From Methylobacter sp. (GTDB lineage Bacteria > Pseudomonadota > Gammaproteobacteria > Methylococcales > Methylomonadaceae), in contig JAUXTH010000150.1 of NCBI GenBank assembly GCA_030679035.1, positions 1 through 64,000 of the forward strand: DNA of 64,000 bases, written 5' to 3'. Every line of letters begins with the position of its first letter. The first letter of the stretch is position 1. The translations under genes and the position numbers were made by a program. The notes below the pieces were generated by a model. It did not search any database, was not told where the DNA came from, and saw only the letters and a program-made list of their open reading frames with translations. This document shows, piece by piece, positions 26,015 to 39,828 of this stretch.

Positions 26015-26030
26015 AGCAATGGCTATGCCA
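26015..26030 (-). promoter_or_regulatory. sigma54 -24/-12 element of nirB (TGGCATAGCCATTGCT)
   Basis: Matches TGGCAY-N5-TTGCW upstream of nirB. Confidence 0.8.
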
Positions 26031-28384: not shown

Positions 28385-30115
28385 ATGTCCAAACCAACAC
28401 TCAAAATCAGCATCGGCTCTGCCAGCGATAAAGGCATCAAGCAGGATAATGAAGATTTTTTCGGTTCATTAATACCGGAAGGTTCGCAGCTGCTCCATAA
28501 AGGCATAGCCGTTGCCATTGCCGATGGCATGAGCGGCAGTGACGACGGAAAACAAGCCAGTCATTGCTGTGTGGTCAGTTTTTTAAGCGACTATTACAGC
28601 ACGCCCGATTCCTGGTCGGTCAAACATGCCGGGCAAAAGATTCTTTCCGCTACCAATTCCTGGTTATACAGTCAGGGGCAAAGCCGATATGAATCGACTA
28701 AGGGCATGGTCAGCACGCTCAGCATAATTATTCTGAAATCAACGACGGCACATATTTTTCATATCGGCGATTCGCGGATTTATCGTTTACGCCAAGGTAA
28801 TTTTGAGCAGATAACCCGTGATCACCGCATCTGGGTTAAAGAAAAAAATTATCTGAACCGGGCCATGGGTATAGAGCCGCATCTGGAAGTCGACTACCAG
28901 TCGAGTTCTTTGGAAAAAGGCGACCTGTTTTTAATGACGACGGACGGCATACACGACTTTATCGATGAAAAAACCTTAAAAAAGCTCGTCCAAGAGTGTG
29001 CGGATTTAACGCGGGTTGCCGCACAAATTATGCAACAGGCTAGTGATAATCACAGCGATGACAACCTGACCTGCCAGCTGGTCAGAATCGATGAATTGCC
29101 CGAAGCCAACGAAGACGAGGTTATTCGCCGCCATACCAACCTGCCTTTTCCGCCACCGTTGGAACCCGGCATGGTGATTGACGGCTACCGGATTGAGGCG
29201 GAATTGCATGCCAGTAAACGCACCCAGATTTATCGGGCATTCGATACAACAACCGACACCCCGGTTATTTTGAAGACGCCGTCCATCCTTTATAACGACG
29301 ACACTCATTACATAGAACATTTTCTTCATGAAGAATGGGCGGGAAAGCGTATTCATCACGAAAATGTGCTGAAAATTCTCAGTTCGAATCGAGAAAAAAG
29401 CTGCATTTATTATGTTACCGAGTTTCTCGAAGGTTCGACACTTAGGCAATGGATAGACGCAAATCCTAAGCCGGACATAAAAGAAACCCGGAAAATAGTC
29501 GAGCAAATCGCCAAGGGCTTGCGCACTTTTCATCGTATGGAAATGCTGCATCAGGATTTAAAGCCTGAAAACATCATGTTTGATAAAAACGGGACGGTTA
29601 AAATTATCGATTTCGGCTCGGTTAAAATCGCCGGTATCACGGAAATCACCCCGCTGGATCACGGCGAGGCGCAGAACATACTTGGCACCTTAAATTACAC
29701 CGCGCCTGAATATCACTTGGGGCAGCGCGGCACCCCAAAATCCGACCTGTTTTCATTGGGCGTCATTACTTATGAAATGCTTAACAACGCCCTGCCTTTC
29801 GGCCAGGATATGCCCGAAAAACCCAACAAAATGAATCTGGCAAAACTTCACTATGTGCCCAGTTTTCATCACAACGCAATGGTTCCTATCTGGATTGACG
29901 GCGCATTAGAAAAAGCCACCGCAATAACCCCGCAATTTCGCTACGACGACTTATCGGAGTTTCTGTATGACCTATCCACGCCCAATCCCAAGTTCCTGAG
30001 CGCTAAAGAGTCTATCCCTTTAATACAGCGCAACCCGTTATTATTCTGGAAAGGCTTATCGGCAATACTGCTGATCACAAACTTGGTTTTTATGTATTTG
30101 TTGTCGCATGGATAA
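28385..30115 (+). CDS. Fused PP2C phosphatase / Ser-Thr protein kinase with C-terminal TM
   Basis: PP2C motifs (VAIADGMSGSDDGKQAS, HIGDSRIYRL) and kinase motifs (HQDLKPENIMFDKNGTVKIIDFGS). Confidence 0.93.
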   Translation: MSKPTLKISIGSASDKGIKQDNEDFFGSLIPEGSQLLHKGIAVAIADGMSGSDDGKQASHCCVVSFLSDYYSTPDSWSVKHAGQKILSATNSWLYSQGQSRYESTKGMVSTLSIIILKSTTAHIFHIGDSRIYRLRQGNFEQITRDHRIWVKEKNYLNRAMGIEPHLEVDYQSSSLEKGDLFLMTTDGIHDFIDEKTLKKLVQECADLTRVAAQIMQQASDNHSDDNLTCQLVRIDELPEANEDEVIRRHTNLPFPPPLEPGMVIDGYRIEAELHASKRTQIYRAFDTTTDTPVILKTPSILYNDDTHYIEHFLHEEWAGKRIHHENVLKILSSNREKSCIYYVTEFLEGSTLRQWIDANPKPDIKETRKIVEQIAKGLRTFHRMEMLHQDLKPENIMFDKNGTVKIIDFGSVKIAGITEITPLDHGEAQNILGTLNYTAPEYHLGQRGTPKSDLFSLGVITYEMLNNALPFGQDMPEKPNKMNLAKLHYVPSFHHNAMVPIWIDGALEKATAITPQFRYDDLSEFLYDLSTPNPKFLSAKESIPLIQRNPLLFWKGLSAILLITNLVFMYLLSHG

Positions 30116-30245: not shown

Positions 30246-30821
30246 ATGAACGACTTAAAAGTATTGCTTATTGAAGATGGAACGGCAGACCAGTTATTGG
30301 GAAAAATACTGGTTTCTAAGGGCTATTCAGTCACCGGCACCGTAATGCTTGAAGGAAACATGCAATCCTTGGCGGTGAACAACAAAATCGACATTGTTAT
30401 CTTTAATATTGACAGCCCCAGAAAATATTTTCAGCACATCGATTTCCTTAGCCAGAATCATCCGCTGCCCATCATTATCTTTGCACCTGACGATACCGTC
30501 GACACCATCAATCAAATCGTTAAGGCCGGCGTCAGCGCCTATGTTGTTAATGGCCTGGAAACCGGTCGCATTGACAGCATCATCAATATCGCTGTGGCAA
30601 GATTTAAGGAACAGCAACGGCTTAAAACCGAATTGGAAAAAACAAAATCCAGGCTTGAAGAAAGAAAACTGATAGACCGGGCAAAAGGCATTTTAATCAA
30701 AACCCGCGGCTTTACCGAAGATGACGCTTATCACACCCTGAGAAAACTGGCGATGGATCGCAATATTGCCATCGGGGAAATGGCGAAAAACGTTATCGCT
30801 ATGGCGGAGCTGCTTAAATAG
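30246..30821 (+). CDS. ANTAR-domain response regulator (NasT-like)
   Basis: Receiver-like N-terminus and ANTAR C-terminus (LEERKLIDRAKGILIKTRGFTEDDAYHTLRKLAMDRN). Confidence 0.92.
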   Translation: MNDLKVLLIEDGTADQLLGKILVSKGYSVTGTVMLEGNMQSLAVNNKIDIVIFNIDSPRKYFQHIDFLSQNHPLPIIIFAPDDTVDTINQIVKAGVSAYVVNGLETGRIDSIINIAVARFKEQQRLKTELEKTKSRLEERKLIDRAKGILIKTRGFTEDDAYHTLRKLAMDRNIAIGEMAKNVIAMAELLK

Positions 30822-30891: not shown

Positions 30892-31422
30892 TTACCACGA
30901 ATCGATGTCTATTAACCCCGCCAGCCCGGAATAATTAGCGGCGCTGGAATAGCGCCAATGCTCAGGCAAGTTCACATAACCGCGTTTTACAGGATTGGCA
31001 TGAATGTATTGCAACTTCTCTCGCATCATAGCCTCGCTAAATATCAGCTCGGCATGAACGCCTTCTTGCCAGAATTGATACTCTCGGTCTGTTTTATGCG
31101 CTCGCTTGTAAAAACGCAATCGTGTTAATAGCCTCTCGACATGCTGTGCCTGCAAACAATCGATAATTTGCCGCGCAGTATATGACTTGAAACTGTGCGC
31201 GCATTTATTCAAGTCTTTCGCTTGGGCAATAAAATGCAAATGGTTTTCTAAAATGACGTAACCGTAAAGTCGTAAGTCTTCGTGTTCCCGTTGGTAACGC
31301 CAACTATCGAGCACGATTTGCACGGTTTCAGTTCGCGTGAAAACTGGTAGCCACTCCAGTACTGTACAGGTCATAAAGTGAGGCCTACCGGGTTCTGTTA
31401 TCAGGTAACGGTTTCTGCCCAT
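30892..31422 (-). CDS. REP-associated tyrosine transposase (Y1_Tnp)
   Basis: GRPHFMTCTVLEWLPVF, YGYVILENHLHFIA, LQYIHANPVKRGYVNLPEHWRYSSA. Confidence 0.93.
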   Translation of the reverse strand: MGRNRYLITEPGRPHFMTCTVLEWLPVFTRTETVQIVLDSWRYQREHEDLRLYGYVILENHLHFIAQAKDLNKCAHSFKSYTARQIIDCLQAQHVERLLTRLRFYKRAHKTDREYQFWQEGVHAELIFSEAMMREKLQYIHANPVKRGYVNLPEHWRYSSAANYSGLAGLIDIDSW

Positions 31423-32436: not shown

Positions 32437-32607
32437 AATCTCGATTGATAATTTGTTGTGTGACGGGTTCAAGCTGAAGCCATGATTATACGATGCCTTG
32501 ATGACGTTGTTATTAACATTCCATATTCCAGCAGATTTTATGCCACAGAGCAGCTTTAGTCACCTTGAGCTACCAAGAGGCTTCGCGCCCACGCAAAAAA
32601 GACCGGA

Positions 32608-32638
32608 TTGGTGCAATACCCTGAAAATAGCGCACCAA
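32608..32638. promoter_or_regulatory. Dyad TTGGTGC-N17-GCACCAA, candidate activator site for the EAL gene
   Basis: 7-bp perfect inverted repeat about 95 bp upstream of a sigma54 element; similar site upstream of nrtA. Confidence 0.6.
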
Positions 32639-32733
32639 ATCGATGCGTTGCAGCCGCCAATGCCAATAATCATGCCGCCGCTGGTACGAGCTATAACCGT
32701 TTAAATCGGGCAAATAAAACTTACCCCCGGCTT

Positions 32734-32749
32734 TGGCACATCGATTGCT
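32734..32749 (+). promoter_or_regulatory. sigma54 -24/-12 element of the EAL gene (TGGCACATCGATTGCT)
   Basis: Matches TGGCAC-N5-TTGCW. Confidence 0.85.
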
Positions 32750-32763
32750 TTAGACAACACAGG

Positions 32764-32802
32764 GCTCCAGCGTCGGAGTGCTGCGGGTTCAATGACGAAC
32801 TC
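32764..32802 (+). promoter_or_regulatory. Candidate ANTAR-target RNA: two hexaloop hairpins
   Basis: GCTCC-AGCGTC-GGAGT and GGGTTC-AATGAC-GAACTC; both loops have A at 1 and G at 4. Confidence 0.72.
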
Positions 32803-32822
32803 CTTAAACAACTCATATCGAT

Positions 32823-33995
32823 ATGAATCAAGAAAAAATACTATTCCCTTATTTTCAGCCTATTGTCGGCGCTGCCAGCGGCACTATCATCGGTTATGAG
32901 GCATTAGCCAGACAACATGATGCAGAGGGCAGGGTTATTTCGGCAGGCGAATTGTTTTCTTCCGCGGATATTGCGCCCGATCAATTGATAGCTTGGGATC
33001 GCATGGTTCGGCGGCAAGCCTTGGAGCAATTCAGTCAATCGAATTCCAACGGTTATTTAACGCTCAATATCTCGGCCGCCTGGATCGACCGGATCGCCGA
33101 CTTTAATTCATTGCCGACCCTGCTGATGCTGGACGAGTTCAATGTTGACAGAAGCCGCGTCATTATTGAAATAACTGAATCGAAAGGCGATCTGGACAAG
33201 CTCGTTGAAATTGCCGCCGTGTATCGCAGGCACGGCTTGAAAATAGCGATTGATGACTTTGGCGCGGGTTTTTCCCAGTTGGAAAGAGTCATGGCTATAC
33301 AGCCCGACATCATCAAACTGGATATGCAGTTATTCCAGAATGCAGCCAAAGGCGGCATCGCCAGCGATATAGTGCATTTGATATCCCGGCTGGCGAAACG
33401 CACCGGTTGTCGCATCGTTTGCGAGGGCGTTGAAACCGCTGAGGACTTCCATTTCGGCTTAAGCTGCGGCGCCCAATATATGCAAGGCTACCTGTTTTCG
33501 CCGGCCACTGCGGAGTTTAAACAGCCGCTGCATTATCAACAACAAATCAGCTCACTCAGAAAAACCTTCCTGAAAAAGACCTTAGCCACCGAAGAACACA
33601 AGATTCAGTTTATCGCCAACATTAAGAGCTTGATCGAACTGCTGAAAAAAGCCCTGGAAACTGACTTCAACCTCAATAAATTATCAGCACACCCGTTTGA
33701 GGAAAGCGGCGTTCTACGGTTTTATTTATGCAATAACGACGGCGACCAAATCTCCTCCAATTTTAATTTTGCCGATGCCAGATGGTTCGAGGATTCGACG
33801 CAACTCGGCTATAACTGGGCATGGCGACCTTATTTTTATCAATTGCTGGCGCTGGAATCGGCGCAAGACAGCTATCGCATTGTAACGTCTGAACGTTACC
33901 GCGATTTTAATACCGACATGCTTTGCAAAACCCTGTCGCTGAGACTGGACGACGAGCGTATTTTATTAATTGATATTGCTGCCGAATGGGTATGA
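32823..33995 (+). CDS. EAL-domain protein (putative c-di-GMP phosphodiesterase)
   Basis: YEALAR, IEITES, IAIDDFGAGFSQLERV, KLDMQL, CEGVETAEDF motifs. Confidence 0.92.
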   Translation: MNQEKILFPYFQPIVGAASGTIIGYEALARQHDAEGRVISAGELFSSADIAPDQLIAWDRMVRRQALEQFSQSNSNGYLTLNISAAWIDRIADFNSLPTLLMLDEFNVDRSRVIIEITESKGDLDKLVEIAAVYRRHGLKIAIDDFGAGFSQLERVMAIQPDIIKLDMQLFQNAAKGGIASDIVHLISRLAKRTGCRIVCEGVETAEDFHFGLSCGAQYMQGYLFSPATAEFKQPLHYQQQISSLRKTFLKKTLATEEHKIQFIANIKSLIELLKKALETDFNLNKLSAHPFEESGVLRFYLCNNDGDQISSNFNFADARWFEDSTQLGYNWAWRPYFYQLLALESAQDSYRIVTSERYRDFNTDMLCKTLSLRLDDERILLIDIAAEWV

Positions 33996-34053: not shown

Positions 34054-36435
34054 ATGCCAAATGGTATTAAAAACTCGAATCGATTAACCATCAAAATGCG
34101 TTTTATGGTTATTGTGGCTTCTTTAATTATCGGCTTTGCGTTATTCGGCTTTGCGACCTTTAAAGCGATGAATATGCTCAATGTTAACGGTCCAATTTAT
34201 CAACGTATTGTTCAGGGCAAGGATATTATTGCCGACGTGTTGCCGCCGCCTGAATATATTATCGAATCTTATCTGGTTGCGCTGCAATTGACCCAAGTCG
34301 GCGACCCTGATGAAATCAGTGCCTTAGTGACGCGTTTTCAGTCGCTAAAAACGGAATACGAGTCCCGTCATAGTTATTGGTTAGGGCAGTCTTTGGAATC
34401 GGAACTCCATGTTTCTTTGCTTGAGCGCTCCTACCGGGCGGCACAAACTTTTTATGATGAAGCCGGCCAGCGATTTCTGCCAAGCATTCAGGCGGGCGAC
34501 CGCGAAGGTTCTCAGGCCAGTCTGCTGCAAATGCGCCACGCTTATGAAGATCATCGACTCGCTATTGATGAGGTAGTCAAGTTTACAACAACTCGTAATG
34601 TAAAAGATGAGGCACAGGCGCTGACGACCATACACGGGTACAAAATCGTTTTGATCGGCATTTTTATATTCAGCGTTGCGGTGGCTGTCGTGCTGACTGC
34701 ACTGATCAGCCGCGGCATATTACGCTCGCTCAAAACTGTCCAACAGGTAGCAGGCGCCATTGCCGAGGGTGATCTGAACTCCAATATTGACACCCATCAA
34801 AGAGATGAGATTGGCGATCTTTTACGCTCCATGAAAGCCATGCAACAACAACTGCTGGAGCGCATCACGGCGGATCGCAAAGCGGCAGACGAAATTTTGC
34901 GCGTCAAGATTGCGTTGGATAACGTCAGTACCGGTGTAATGATTGCCGATAATGACCGCAACATCATTTACGCCAATAAATCGGTAATCAATATTCTCGG
35001 TAAGGCTGAAGCTGAAATTAGTCGGCAATTGTCAAAATTCTCTCTCAATGGCCTGGTCGGAACCAACATGGATGATTTTCACGAAGATCCCTCGCATCAG
35101 GCAAAAATGCTTAACTCCTTAGCCGGCAGCTATGAGGCCGCCATGCTGGTAGGCGGCCGCTCGATGGTAGTGCTCGCCAATCCGGTCATCAATGAACAGG
35201 GTCAACGACTGGGTACGGTGGCCGAATGGCATGACCGCACCGACGAGGTCATCGCGGAAAATGAAGTAGCCGCGATTGTCGGTGCCGCAGCGATGGGAGA
35301 TTTCAGCATGCGCTTCGACCTGGATGGCTAGGAAGGCTTTTTGCGTCATTTGGGCGAAGAAATTAATCGGCTTATGCACACCAGCGAAACCGGACTGAAA
35401 GAGGTGGTGCGCGTACTCGGAGCGTTGTCCCGTGGCGACTTAACAGAAGAAATTACCCATGATTATTACGGCACTTTCGGACAACTGAAAGATGACTCCA
35501 ATTCCACAGTAGAAAAACTTACAGCTATTATCAGCCAAATCAAGGATGCCACCGACAGCATTAACACGGCGTCTAAAGAAATTGCAGCAGGCAACAATGA
35601 CCTGTCGCACCGTACTGAACAACAAGCCGCCAGCCTGCAACAAACCGCCGCCAGCATGGATGAGCTGACCTCTACCGTGCAGCATAATGCCGCAAACGCC
35701 CAACAGGCAAACCGGCTAGCCGCTGATGCCTCGGACATCGCGGGCAAAGGCGTCGAAGTGGTCAACCAAGTTGTCATGACGATGAATGAAATCAATGAGT
35801 CTTCGCACAAAATCGGGGATATAATTTCGGTGATCGACGACATTGCTTTCCAGACCAACATTCTCGCCCTCAACGCAGCGGTAGAAGCCGCACGGGCAGG
35901 AGAGCAGGGCAGAGGCTTCGCCGTGGTGGCAGTGGAAGTGCGCAGTCTTGCGCAACGCGCCGCGACGGCTGCCGGAGAAATTAAAAACCTGATTAATGAT
36001 TCGGTCAATAAAGTCGTAGGGGGCAGTAAACTGGTTGCCCAGGCGGGTCAGACCATGGAAGAAATCGTCAGCTCCATCCATGGCGTTACAAACATAATGA
36101 GCGAAATCACCGCCGCCTCTTCTGAACAAAGTTCCGGCATCGAGCAGGTCAATCAAGCCATTACCCAAATGGACGATGTAACCCAACAAAATGCCGCCTT
36201 GGTAGAACAAGCCGCAACGGCAGCAGAATCACTGGAAGAGCAGGCGCAAAATCTGGTGGTCACGATGAGCAGTTTTAAGGTGGCCGGCAACCCGAGTAAC
36301 TCAGGCAGTTCTTTTTATGTGCCACCCGTTCGAAAGGAAATAGCACAAACCAAAACAACTGCCGTTAACGTTTTATCTATCCGCCAAAAATCACAGCTGC
36401 AAGCTGCTGGTATTGATGATTGGGAAGAGTTTTAA
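34054..36435 (+). pseudogene. Methyl-accepting chemotaxis protein split by in-frame TAG
   Basis: ORFs 34054-35331 and 35341-36435 are in the same frame separated only by TAG 35329-35331; sensor/HAMP/PAS region upstream, MCP signalling hairpin downstream. Confidence 0.9.
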
Positions 36436-38254: not shown

Positions 38255-38270
38255 TGGCACAACGATTGCT
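38255..38270 (+). promoter_or_regulatory. sigma54 -24/-12 element of nrtA (TGGCACAACGATTGCT)
   Basis: Matches TGGCAC-N5-TTGCW. Confidence 0.88.
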
Positions 38271-38285
38271 CTAAACAATACAGAG

Positions 38286-38332
38286 GCTCCAACGATGGAG
38301 CGCTAAAAAAATAGGGGTTCAACGGCGAACCC
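38286..38332 (+). promoter_or_regulatory. Candidate ANTAR-target RNA: two hexaloop hairpins in the nrtA leader
   Basis: GCTCC-AACGAT-GGAGC and GGGTTC-AACGGC-GAACCC; both loops have A at 1 and G at 4. Confidence 0.85.
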
Positions 38333-38343
38333 AAACAGACAAA

Positions 38344-38398
38344 GGCGTCTACCCGGCTGAATACTCCATGTATTCCGTAAGGTGACGCTTTTTTTTTG
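38344..38398 (+). terminator. Leader terminator upstream of nrtA
   Basis: GCGTCTACC ... GGTGACGC stem with inner GAATAC/GTATTC hairpin, followed by a T run. Confidence 0.78.
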
Positions 38399-38427: not shown

Positions 38428-39828
38428 ATGAAACAAACCGGACGATTTACCATTAAAAAACGGGTTGCGGCGCTCATTGCTGTGGCTGTGGTATCAACTT
38501 TATCTTTTGCCTCCAGTGCCTACGCAGCTGAAAAACTGGAAAAAGACAGCCTCAAGCTCGGTTTCATCAAACTGACCGATATGGCGCCTTTGGCGGTTGC
38601 TTTGGAAAAAGGCTATTTCGAAGACGAAGGTCTTTCCGTGCAGCTGGAAGCGCAAGCCAACTGGAAGGTCTTGTTGGATCGCGTCGTTAGCGGCGAACTG
38701 GACGGCGCGCACATGCTGGCAACCCTGCCTTTTGGTGCGGCCATCGGCTACGGCACCAAGGCCGATATTATCAGCGCCTTTACCTTAACCTTAAACGGCG
38801 ATGCGATTACCGTATCCAACGATGTCTGGAAGCAGATGAAGCCGCAGATTCCTATGAAAGACGGCAAGCCGGTGCATCCGATCAAAGCCGATACCTTAAA
38901 ACCGGTGCTGGAAAAATACAAAGCCGCGGGCAAACCGTTCAACATGGCGATGACCTTCCCGGTCGGCACCCACAACATGAAACTGCGTTACTGGCTGGCG
39001 GCCGGAGGCATCAAGCCCGGATTCTACGCGCCGCCTGAAGACACTTCCGGCCAAATCGACGCCGAAGCGATGCTGTCGGTCACGCCGCCCCCGCAAATGC
39101 CTGCAACGATGGACTCGGGCACGATCGTCGGCTACTGCGTCGGCGAACCGTGGAATCAGCAGGCGGTATTCAAAGGCATCGGCGTGCCGGTCATCAGCGA
39201 TTACGAGCTGATGAAAAACAGCGCTGAAAAAATCTTCGGCGTGAACAAGGAGTGGGCCGACAAGAATCCCAATACCCACAAGGCGGTCATCAAGGCGTTG
39301 ATTCGCGCCTCGATGTGGCTGGATGCGGAAAATAACAAGAACCGCAACGAAGGCGTGGAAATGCTGTCGCAAAAACAATATGTCGGTGCCGATTACGAGG
39401 TGCTCGCCAACAGCATGAACGGCACGTTCGAATATGAAAAAGGCGACAAGCGCGATCTGCCCGATTTCAACGTGTTTTTCCGCCATAACGGTTCTTACCC
39501 TTATTACAGCGATGCGGTCTGGAGCCTGACCCAAATGCGCCGCTGGGGGCAAATCAACGAATACAAACCTGATTCTTGGTACCTGGAAACCGCTAAAAAA
39601 GTGTATCGGCCCGATATTTACATGGCGGCGGCCAAGACATTGATTGCCGAAGGCAAGGCGAAAGCCGGCGATTTTCCGGCCGACAATGAAACCGGCATCA
39701 AGCCGCCCAGCGCTGACTTTATTGACGGTGTCAGTTTCGACGCCACCAAGCCCAATGATTATCTGAGTAAGTTTGCTATCGGCCTTAAGGGCAAGCAAAA
39801 AGTGGTCGGCGGGAAGGTGGTCGAATAA
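38428..39828 (+). CDS. nrtA: Nitrate ABC transporter substrate-binding protein (CmpA/NrtA family)
   Basis: [56 protein letters not shown]. Confidence 0.93.

Follow-up and report, generated by a model that had tools for sequence, protein, structure and literature searches.

How does a gene for a c-di-GMP phosphodiesterase come to stand behind an RNA leader that resembles the targets of ANTAR proteins, and does this leader tie it to nitrate uptake? Most of what is known of regulation by ANTAR RNAs concerns genes of nitrogen metabolism. The question is raised by a Methylobacter contig, of which a stretch of 64 kb (the window) carries, in front of an EAL gene, a sigma54 promoter followed by two hexaloop hairpins, and, some kilobases downstream, a similar leader in front of nrtA (Table 1). 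A literature search conducted mostly outside the subscription journals yielded no paper linking ANTAR RNAs to EAL genes. A close parallel is the NasR target in the nasF leader of Klebsiella oxytoca, a dual hexaloop with A at position 1 and G at position 4 (A1/G4) in a nitrogen-gene leader controlled by nitrate antitermination (PMC3369931). The dual A1/G4 hexaloops are common to both systems, as is the overlapping terminator in the case of the nrtA leader of the window; here, however, the target is a c-di-GMP phosphodiesterase, the EAL copy of the window has no terminator, and the regulator is a pseudo-receiver-ANTAR rather than a NIT-ANTAR protein.

Table 1. Features of the window bearing on the EAL and nrtA leaders (all on the plus strand).
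Feature	Positions	Strand	Details
ANTAR protein gene, presumed regulator	30246..30821	+	degenerate receiver domain; Pfam PF03861, E 1e-19
Dyad TTGGTGC-N17-GCACCAA	32608..32638	+	arms TTGGTGC 32608-32614 and GCACCAA 32632-32638; from sequence
sigma54 (–24/–12) promoter of EAL gene, TGGCACATCGATTGCT	32734..32749	+	exact match to TGGCAC-N5-TTGCT
P1 hairpin gctcc-AGCGTC-ggagt	32764..32779	+	hexaloop, A1 and G4
P2 hairpin gggttc-AATGAC-gaactc	32785..32802	+	hexaloop, A1 and G4
Palindrome tcat-ATCGAT-atga around EAL start codon	32813..32826	+	possible weak third hexaloop of AnnGnn type, speculative
EAL-YkuI_C gene, predicted c-di-GMP phosphodiesterase	32823..33995	+	Pfam EAL and YkuI_C; ATG at 32823; 390 residues
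Methyl-accepting chemotaxis gene	34054..36435	+	directly 3' of EAL gene; in-frame TAG 35329-35331
nrtA sigma54 promoter	38255..38270	+	exact consensus match
nrtA leader, three hexaloops	38286..38350	+	P1 38286-38301, P2 38315-38332, P3 agac-AAAGGC-gtct 38337-38350
nrtA intrinsic terminator	38344..38397	+	5' arm overlaps P3
nrtA-type nitrate-binding protein gene	38428..39828	+	other regulon member in window

Promoter and hairpins of the EAL gene

The dyad, the promoter and the two A1/G4 hairpins described in an earlier note on this DNA are all present in the sequence. The EAL gene itself is intact and predicted to encode a c-di-GMP phosphodiesterase; its product aligns over the full length with B. 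subtilis YkuI and, in the alignment, has the EAL motif and the metal and catalytic residues of the active enzyme YahA. The sigma54 promoter has GG at –24 and GC at –12 at the correct spacing, and exact matches to the consensus occur only twice in the 64 kb, before the EAL gene and before nrtA. The usual distance from the –12 GC to the transcription start is 12 nt, so the EAL transcript is predicted to begin near 32760, with P1 about 4 nt into the RNA. The dyad, which lies about 100 bp 5' of the promoter, is a candidate enhancer-binding site whose half-sites suggest an NtrC-like protein, and a similar dyad (TTGGTGC-N16-GCAC) also precedes the nrtA promoter. The stems of P1 and P2 have 5 and 6 bp, with one G-U pair in each, where a dual hexaloop calls for at least 3 bp under six-base loops, and both loops (AGCGTC and AATGAC) carry A1 and G4. 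The linker between them, of 5 nt in the window and 11 nt in three relatives, falls in the window within the range of 5–12 nt that works in E. faecalis eut (PMC3369931).

A scan of the window for tandem AnnGnn hexaloops returned the EAL and the nrtA leaders only. Shuffled windows yield about 0.5 tandem hexaloop pairs each, some of them scoring equally high, so that the EAL pair, taken by itself, has only mild significance; the significance of the leader comes from its rank with an nrtA-only model, from the promoter geometry and from its conservation in relatives. A covariance model built on nine nrtA leaders, that of the window included, was run on the whole genome (4.79 Mb): the nrtA leader came first (E 3.5e-15), the EAL leader second (E 0.0035) and the third match had an E of 3.9. 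With a wider model, which has the EAL leader in its seed, the EAL leader reached E 2e-7 and the next match in the genome 3.3. Rfam returned nothing in the window at gathering scores, and weak unrelated matches only in a permissive search. The sigma54 element, which the models do not contain, is found 29–35 nt before P1 in each of the 38 aligned leaders. In this 38-leader set, whose alignment was fitted to the model, both sides change in 7 of the 11 pairs, and none of 500 shuffles was as high in pairing or covariation score; a MAFFT alignment of 16 leaders points in the same direction, more weakly.

The leader in Methylobacter and in other genera

Orthologous upstream regions, to which the earlier note had looked for conservation of the hairpins, carry the same leader before the EAL gene in several Methylobacter relatives. 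The wider model gave 33 matches at E<=0.001 in 23 Methylobacter genomes, which the downstream DNA assigns to nrtA (17), the EAL gene (9), a chemoreceptor gene (5), an EAL remnant (1) and a contig end (1). The chemoreceptor gene behind these five leaders is the one that directly follows the EAL gene in the window; its homologue in relatives thus carries an ANTAR leader of its own. Figure S3 of Ramesh et al. 2012 (PMC3369931) had shown, as a single prediction, an ANTAR RNA that overlaps the beginning of a gene for a methyl-accepting chemotaxis protein; it resembles the present case in being a predicted target before a chemoreceptor gene, whereas here several Methylobacter species have sigma54-hexaloop-terminator leaders in that place. 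Within the genus, leader matches were found in 17 of the 18 genomes with an ANTAR gene vs 1 of the 5 without it (Fisher p 0.0027). Family- and order-wide searches found the EAL-linked leader in Methylobacter only; the few matches in other genera stand before nrtA, nirB, an alginate-export-type porin and another chemoreceptor. Taken together, the EAL leader is very probably an ANTAR target that shares a regulon with nrtA, and we read the distribution as placing c-di-GMP turnover and chemotaxis in the nitrate-uptake regulon.

Several single leaders may be recorded here. On a separate contig of M. tundripaludum OWC-G53F (L117:463-507), an ANTAR leader with a terminator precedes the EAL-YkuI_C remnant, which is followed by a PAS-rich gene ending in a GGDEF-like start. 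The leader before the Alginate_exp-family outer-membrane protein (L102:219-264) comes from a different genus within the family. In the window, nirB has a sigma54-like element with one mismatch at its start (26015-26030, minus strand) and no hexaloop pair after it, although in L104 and L106 nirB does carry a hexaloop leader.

Leaders with and without a terminator

As the earlier note had remarked, and unlike in nrtA, the EAL leader of the window has no intrinsic terminator in the stretch from P2 to the ATG, nor one that overlaps the last hexaloop. The EAL genes of M. tundripaludum SV96 and other relatives are preceded by the sigma54 promoter, P1 and P2, after which comes a third hexaloop (gac-AAAGGC-gtc type) that lies within the 5' arm of an intrinsic terminator. 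In six further Methylobacter EAL copies, of which five are clear and one is weaker, the hexaloops lie farther upstream, and most of these copies also have a terminator. ANTAR antitermination involves competition between the last hexaloop and the terminator (PMC3369931, PMC8934654), and the layout of the terminator-type EAL leaders is the expected arrangement of a classic ANTAR attenuator. A third AnnGnn hexaloop in addition to P1 and P2 is present in most leaders; its sequence (gac-AAAGGC-gtc) is very constant, and it overlaps the terminator.

The terminator-less EAL leaders are those of the window, L034, L038 and L040, in which P2 ends 20–21 nt before the ATG. Because the sequence that follows P2 in the window (GAACTCCTTAAA...) resembles the stretch just 5' of the EAL start in the terminator-type paralogue L115, the terminator may have been lost by a deletion between two copies of GAAC. 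The promoter spacer ATCG, common to the terminator-less group, vs AACG, argues for one old event; in the EAL gene tree the four copies are not resolved as one clade. Without a terminator, the established ANTAR antitermination cannot operate in the EAL copy of the window.

The hairpins that are left might therefore be decaying, functionless remains of an ANTAR attenuator, the EAL gene being governed since the terminator loss by sigma54 and its activator alone. Besides the missing terminator, the loss or degradation of the hairpins in several related EAL copies that have a promoter of this type speaks for it; recognisable hairpins are missing in about half of 20 Methylobacter EAL copies, so hairpin control is evidently dispensable. 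The four terminator-less genes, however, are only 58–66% identical at four-fold degenerate sites, and yet their leaders keep 41 of 44 pair cells and A1/G4 in 16 of 16 positions, where a perfect hairpin pair drifting neutrally to the same divergence would be expected to keep about 30 of the 44 cells. In a neutral simulation, run on the assumption of a single old deletion and a star phylogeny, this joint state of pairing and A1/G4 has a frequency of about 1e-5, or 0.009 if the neutral identity is set at 0.8. A1/G4 is retained in L034, L038 and L040 alike, the P2 loop of L038 having one extra base, and P2 holds its distance from the ATG while the P1–P2 linker varies. Since pairing and A1/G4 are kept beyond the neutral expectation, continued use of the terminator-less hairpins is favoured, and we regard functionless remains as unlikely.

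The hairpins could also be in use for a purpose of their own, independent of any ANTAR protein, such as keeping the 5' end of the message from being degraded. Hairpins at the 5' end are known to stabilise messages, and P1 and P2 lie where the RNA is predicted to begin. Stabilisation of this kind seems improbable given that the A1/G4 loops are kept, that the leaders track the presence of the ANTAR gene and that the same model matches only nrtA, EAL and chemoreceptor leaders. As to hairpins arising by chance beside a sigma54 promoter, the yield of the shuffled windows is what might suggest it, but the second rank in the genome by an independent model and the conservation in relatives with fixed promoter spacing have already largely refuted it, and we give it hardly any weight.

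Presumed regulator and signal, and proposed mechanism

The ANTAR protein that the earlier note had pointed out is confirmed by its Pfam match (Table 1), and its gene, 2 kb upstream of the EAL gene, is the only ANTAR gene found in the genome of the window. In its receiver domain, a pseudo-receiver, Asn takes the place of the Asp that is phosphorylated in EutV; the same replacement is seen in most of the Methylobacter ANTAR orthologues examined. With the NasS–NasT systems of the nas and nos leaders in Paracoccus and Bradyrhizobium it has in common a receiver-ANTAR protein and nitrogen-gene leaders (PMC3795266, PMC6759348). They differ in that the target here regulates c-di-GMP and that an NrtA/NasS search of the Methylobacter genome found no separate cytoplasmic NrtA-like NasS partner; the sole NrtA/NasS-like protein begins with a signal-peptide-like stretch and looks like the exported NrtA itself. 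The Asn for Asp and the missing NasS-like partner are why we assign no sensor to the ANTAR protein. The neighbouring PP2C-kinase gene (28385-30115) is, only by its position, a candidate activator.

The genomic setting includes nirB, narK, nrtA and nrtB, with the NarK family confirmed, and supports a link to nitrogen oxides, while the sigma54 promoter with its upstream dyad supports nitrogen limitation; nitrate as the signal is what we infer. Of the earlier proposal that c-di-GMP turnover is directly controlled by nitrogen or nitrate status, what stands are the sigma54 promoter, the hairpins resembling ANTAR targets, the regulon shared with nrtA, the conservation in relatives and the single ANTAR gene nearby; direct control by nitrate is a reasonable inference for the genus.

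The explanation that we prefer for the EAL leader, and consider probable as a whole, runs as follows. Under nitrogen limitation, sigma54 RNA polymerase would start about 4 nt before P1, and the dual hexaloop would form at the very 5' end of the EAL message, as in nrtA. The ANTAR protein would bind this RNA and so bring the EAL phosphodiesterase, together with the chemoreceptor encoded behind it, into the nitrate-uptake regulon. In several relatives this would occur by antitermination, through the third hexaloop that overlaps the 5' arm of the terminator. In the lineage of the window, the putative deletion would have taken out the terminator and brought P2 up to the sequence just before the start codon; through the retained hairpins the ANTAR protein might now influence the initiation of translation or the stability of the message.

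That the EAL leader acts at translation or stability is close to an even call, if on the doubtful side. In Actinobacteria, as outlined in a paper citing mycobacterial work (PMC8164766), terminator-less ANTAR RNAs overlap the ribosome-binding site or start codon and the bound ANTAR protein represses translation, which makes a translational role plausible here. Both have a dual hexaloop near the start codon without a terminator, but the present leader is from a gammaproteobacterium, follows a sigma54 promoter, has hairpins that end 20 nt before the ATG, and has sister genes that keep the terminator. At the EAL leader there is no good Shine-Dalgarno sequence for the hairpins to mask. The palindrome around the start codon pairs weakly without protein; as the main mechanism it was downgraded on this ground and for its incompleteness in one of four species. 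More tentative still is the fuller proposal that one ANTAR regulon joins nitrate uptake, c-di-GMP hydrolysis and chemoreception, and that a terminator deletion switched one of its targets from antitermination to translational control at the start codon, perhaps with a third hexaloop newly formed around the ATG.

Conserved ANTAR leaders on the EAL and chemoreceptor genes would amount to a link, at the level of RNA, between nitrogen supply and the decision between motile and sessile life in methanotrophs, one RNA-binding regulator probably tying the former to the switch between swimming and settling. Sister species with and without the terminator allow a direct test of the passage from an attenuator to a translational switch.

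As for the surroundings of the EAL gene, the TAG in the chemoreceptor gene of the window splits it into two open stretches in the same frame; as the homologue in L038 has no interruption, this stop codon may have arisen recently by nonsense mutation or stem from an error in the assembly. In L032 (5795-6000), with counterparts in L033, L062, L044 and L047, a short frame just 5' of the EAL gene matches the C-terminal ~28 residues of the ANTAR protein and is followed by a duplicated EAL N-terminus. Between the ANTAR and EAL genes of the window, the reading frame at 30892-31422 on the minus strand looks, judged by eye, like a REP-associated (Y1-type) transposase.
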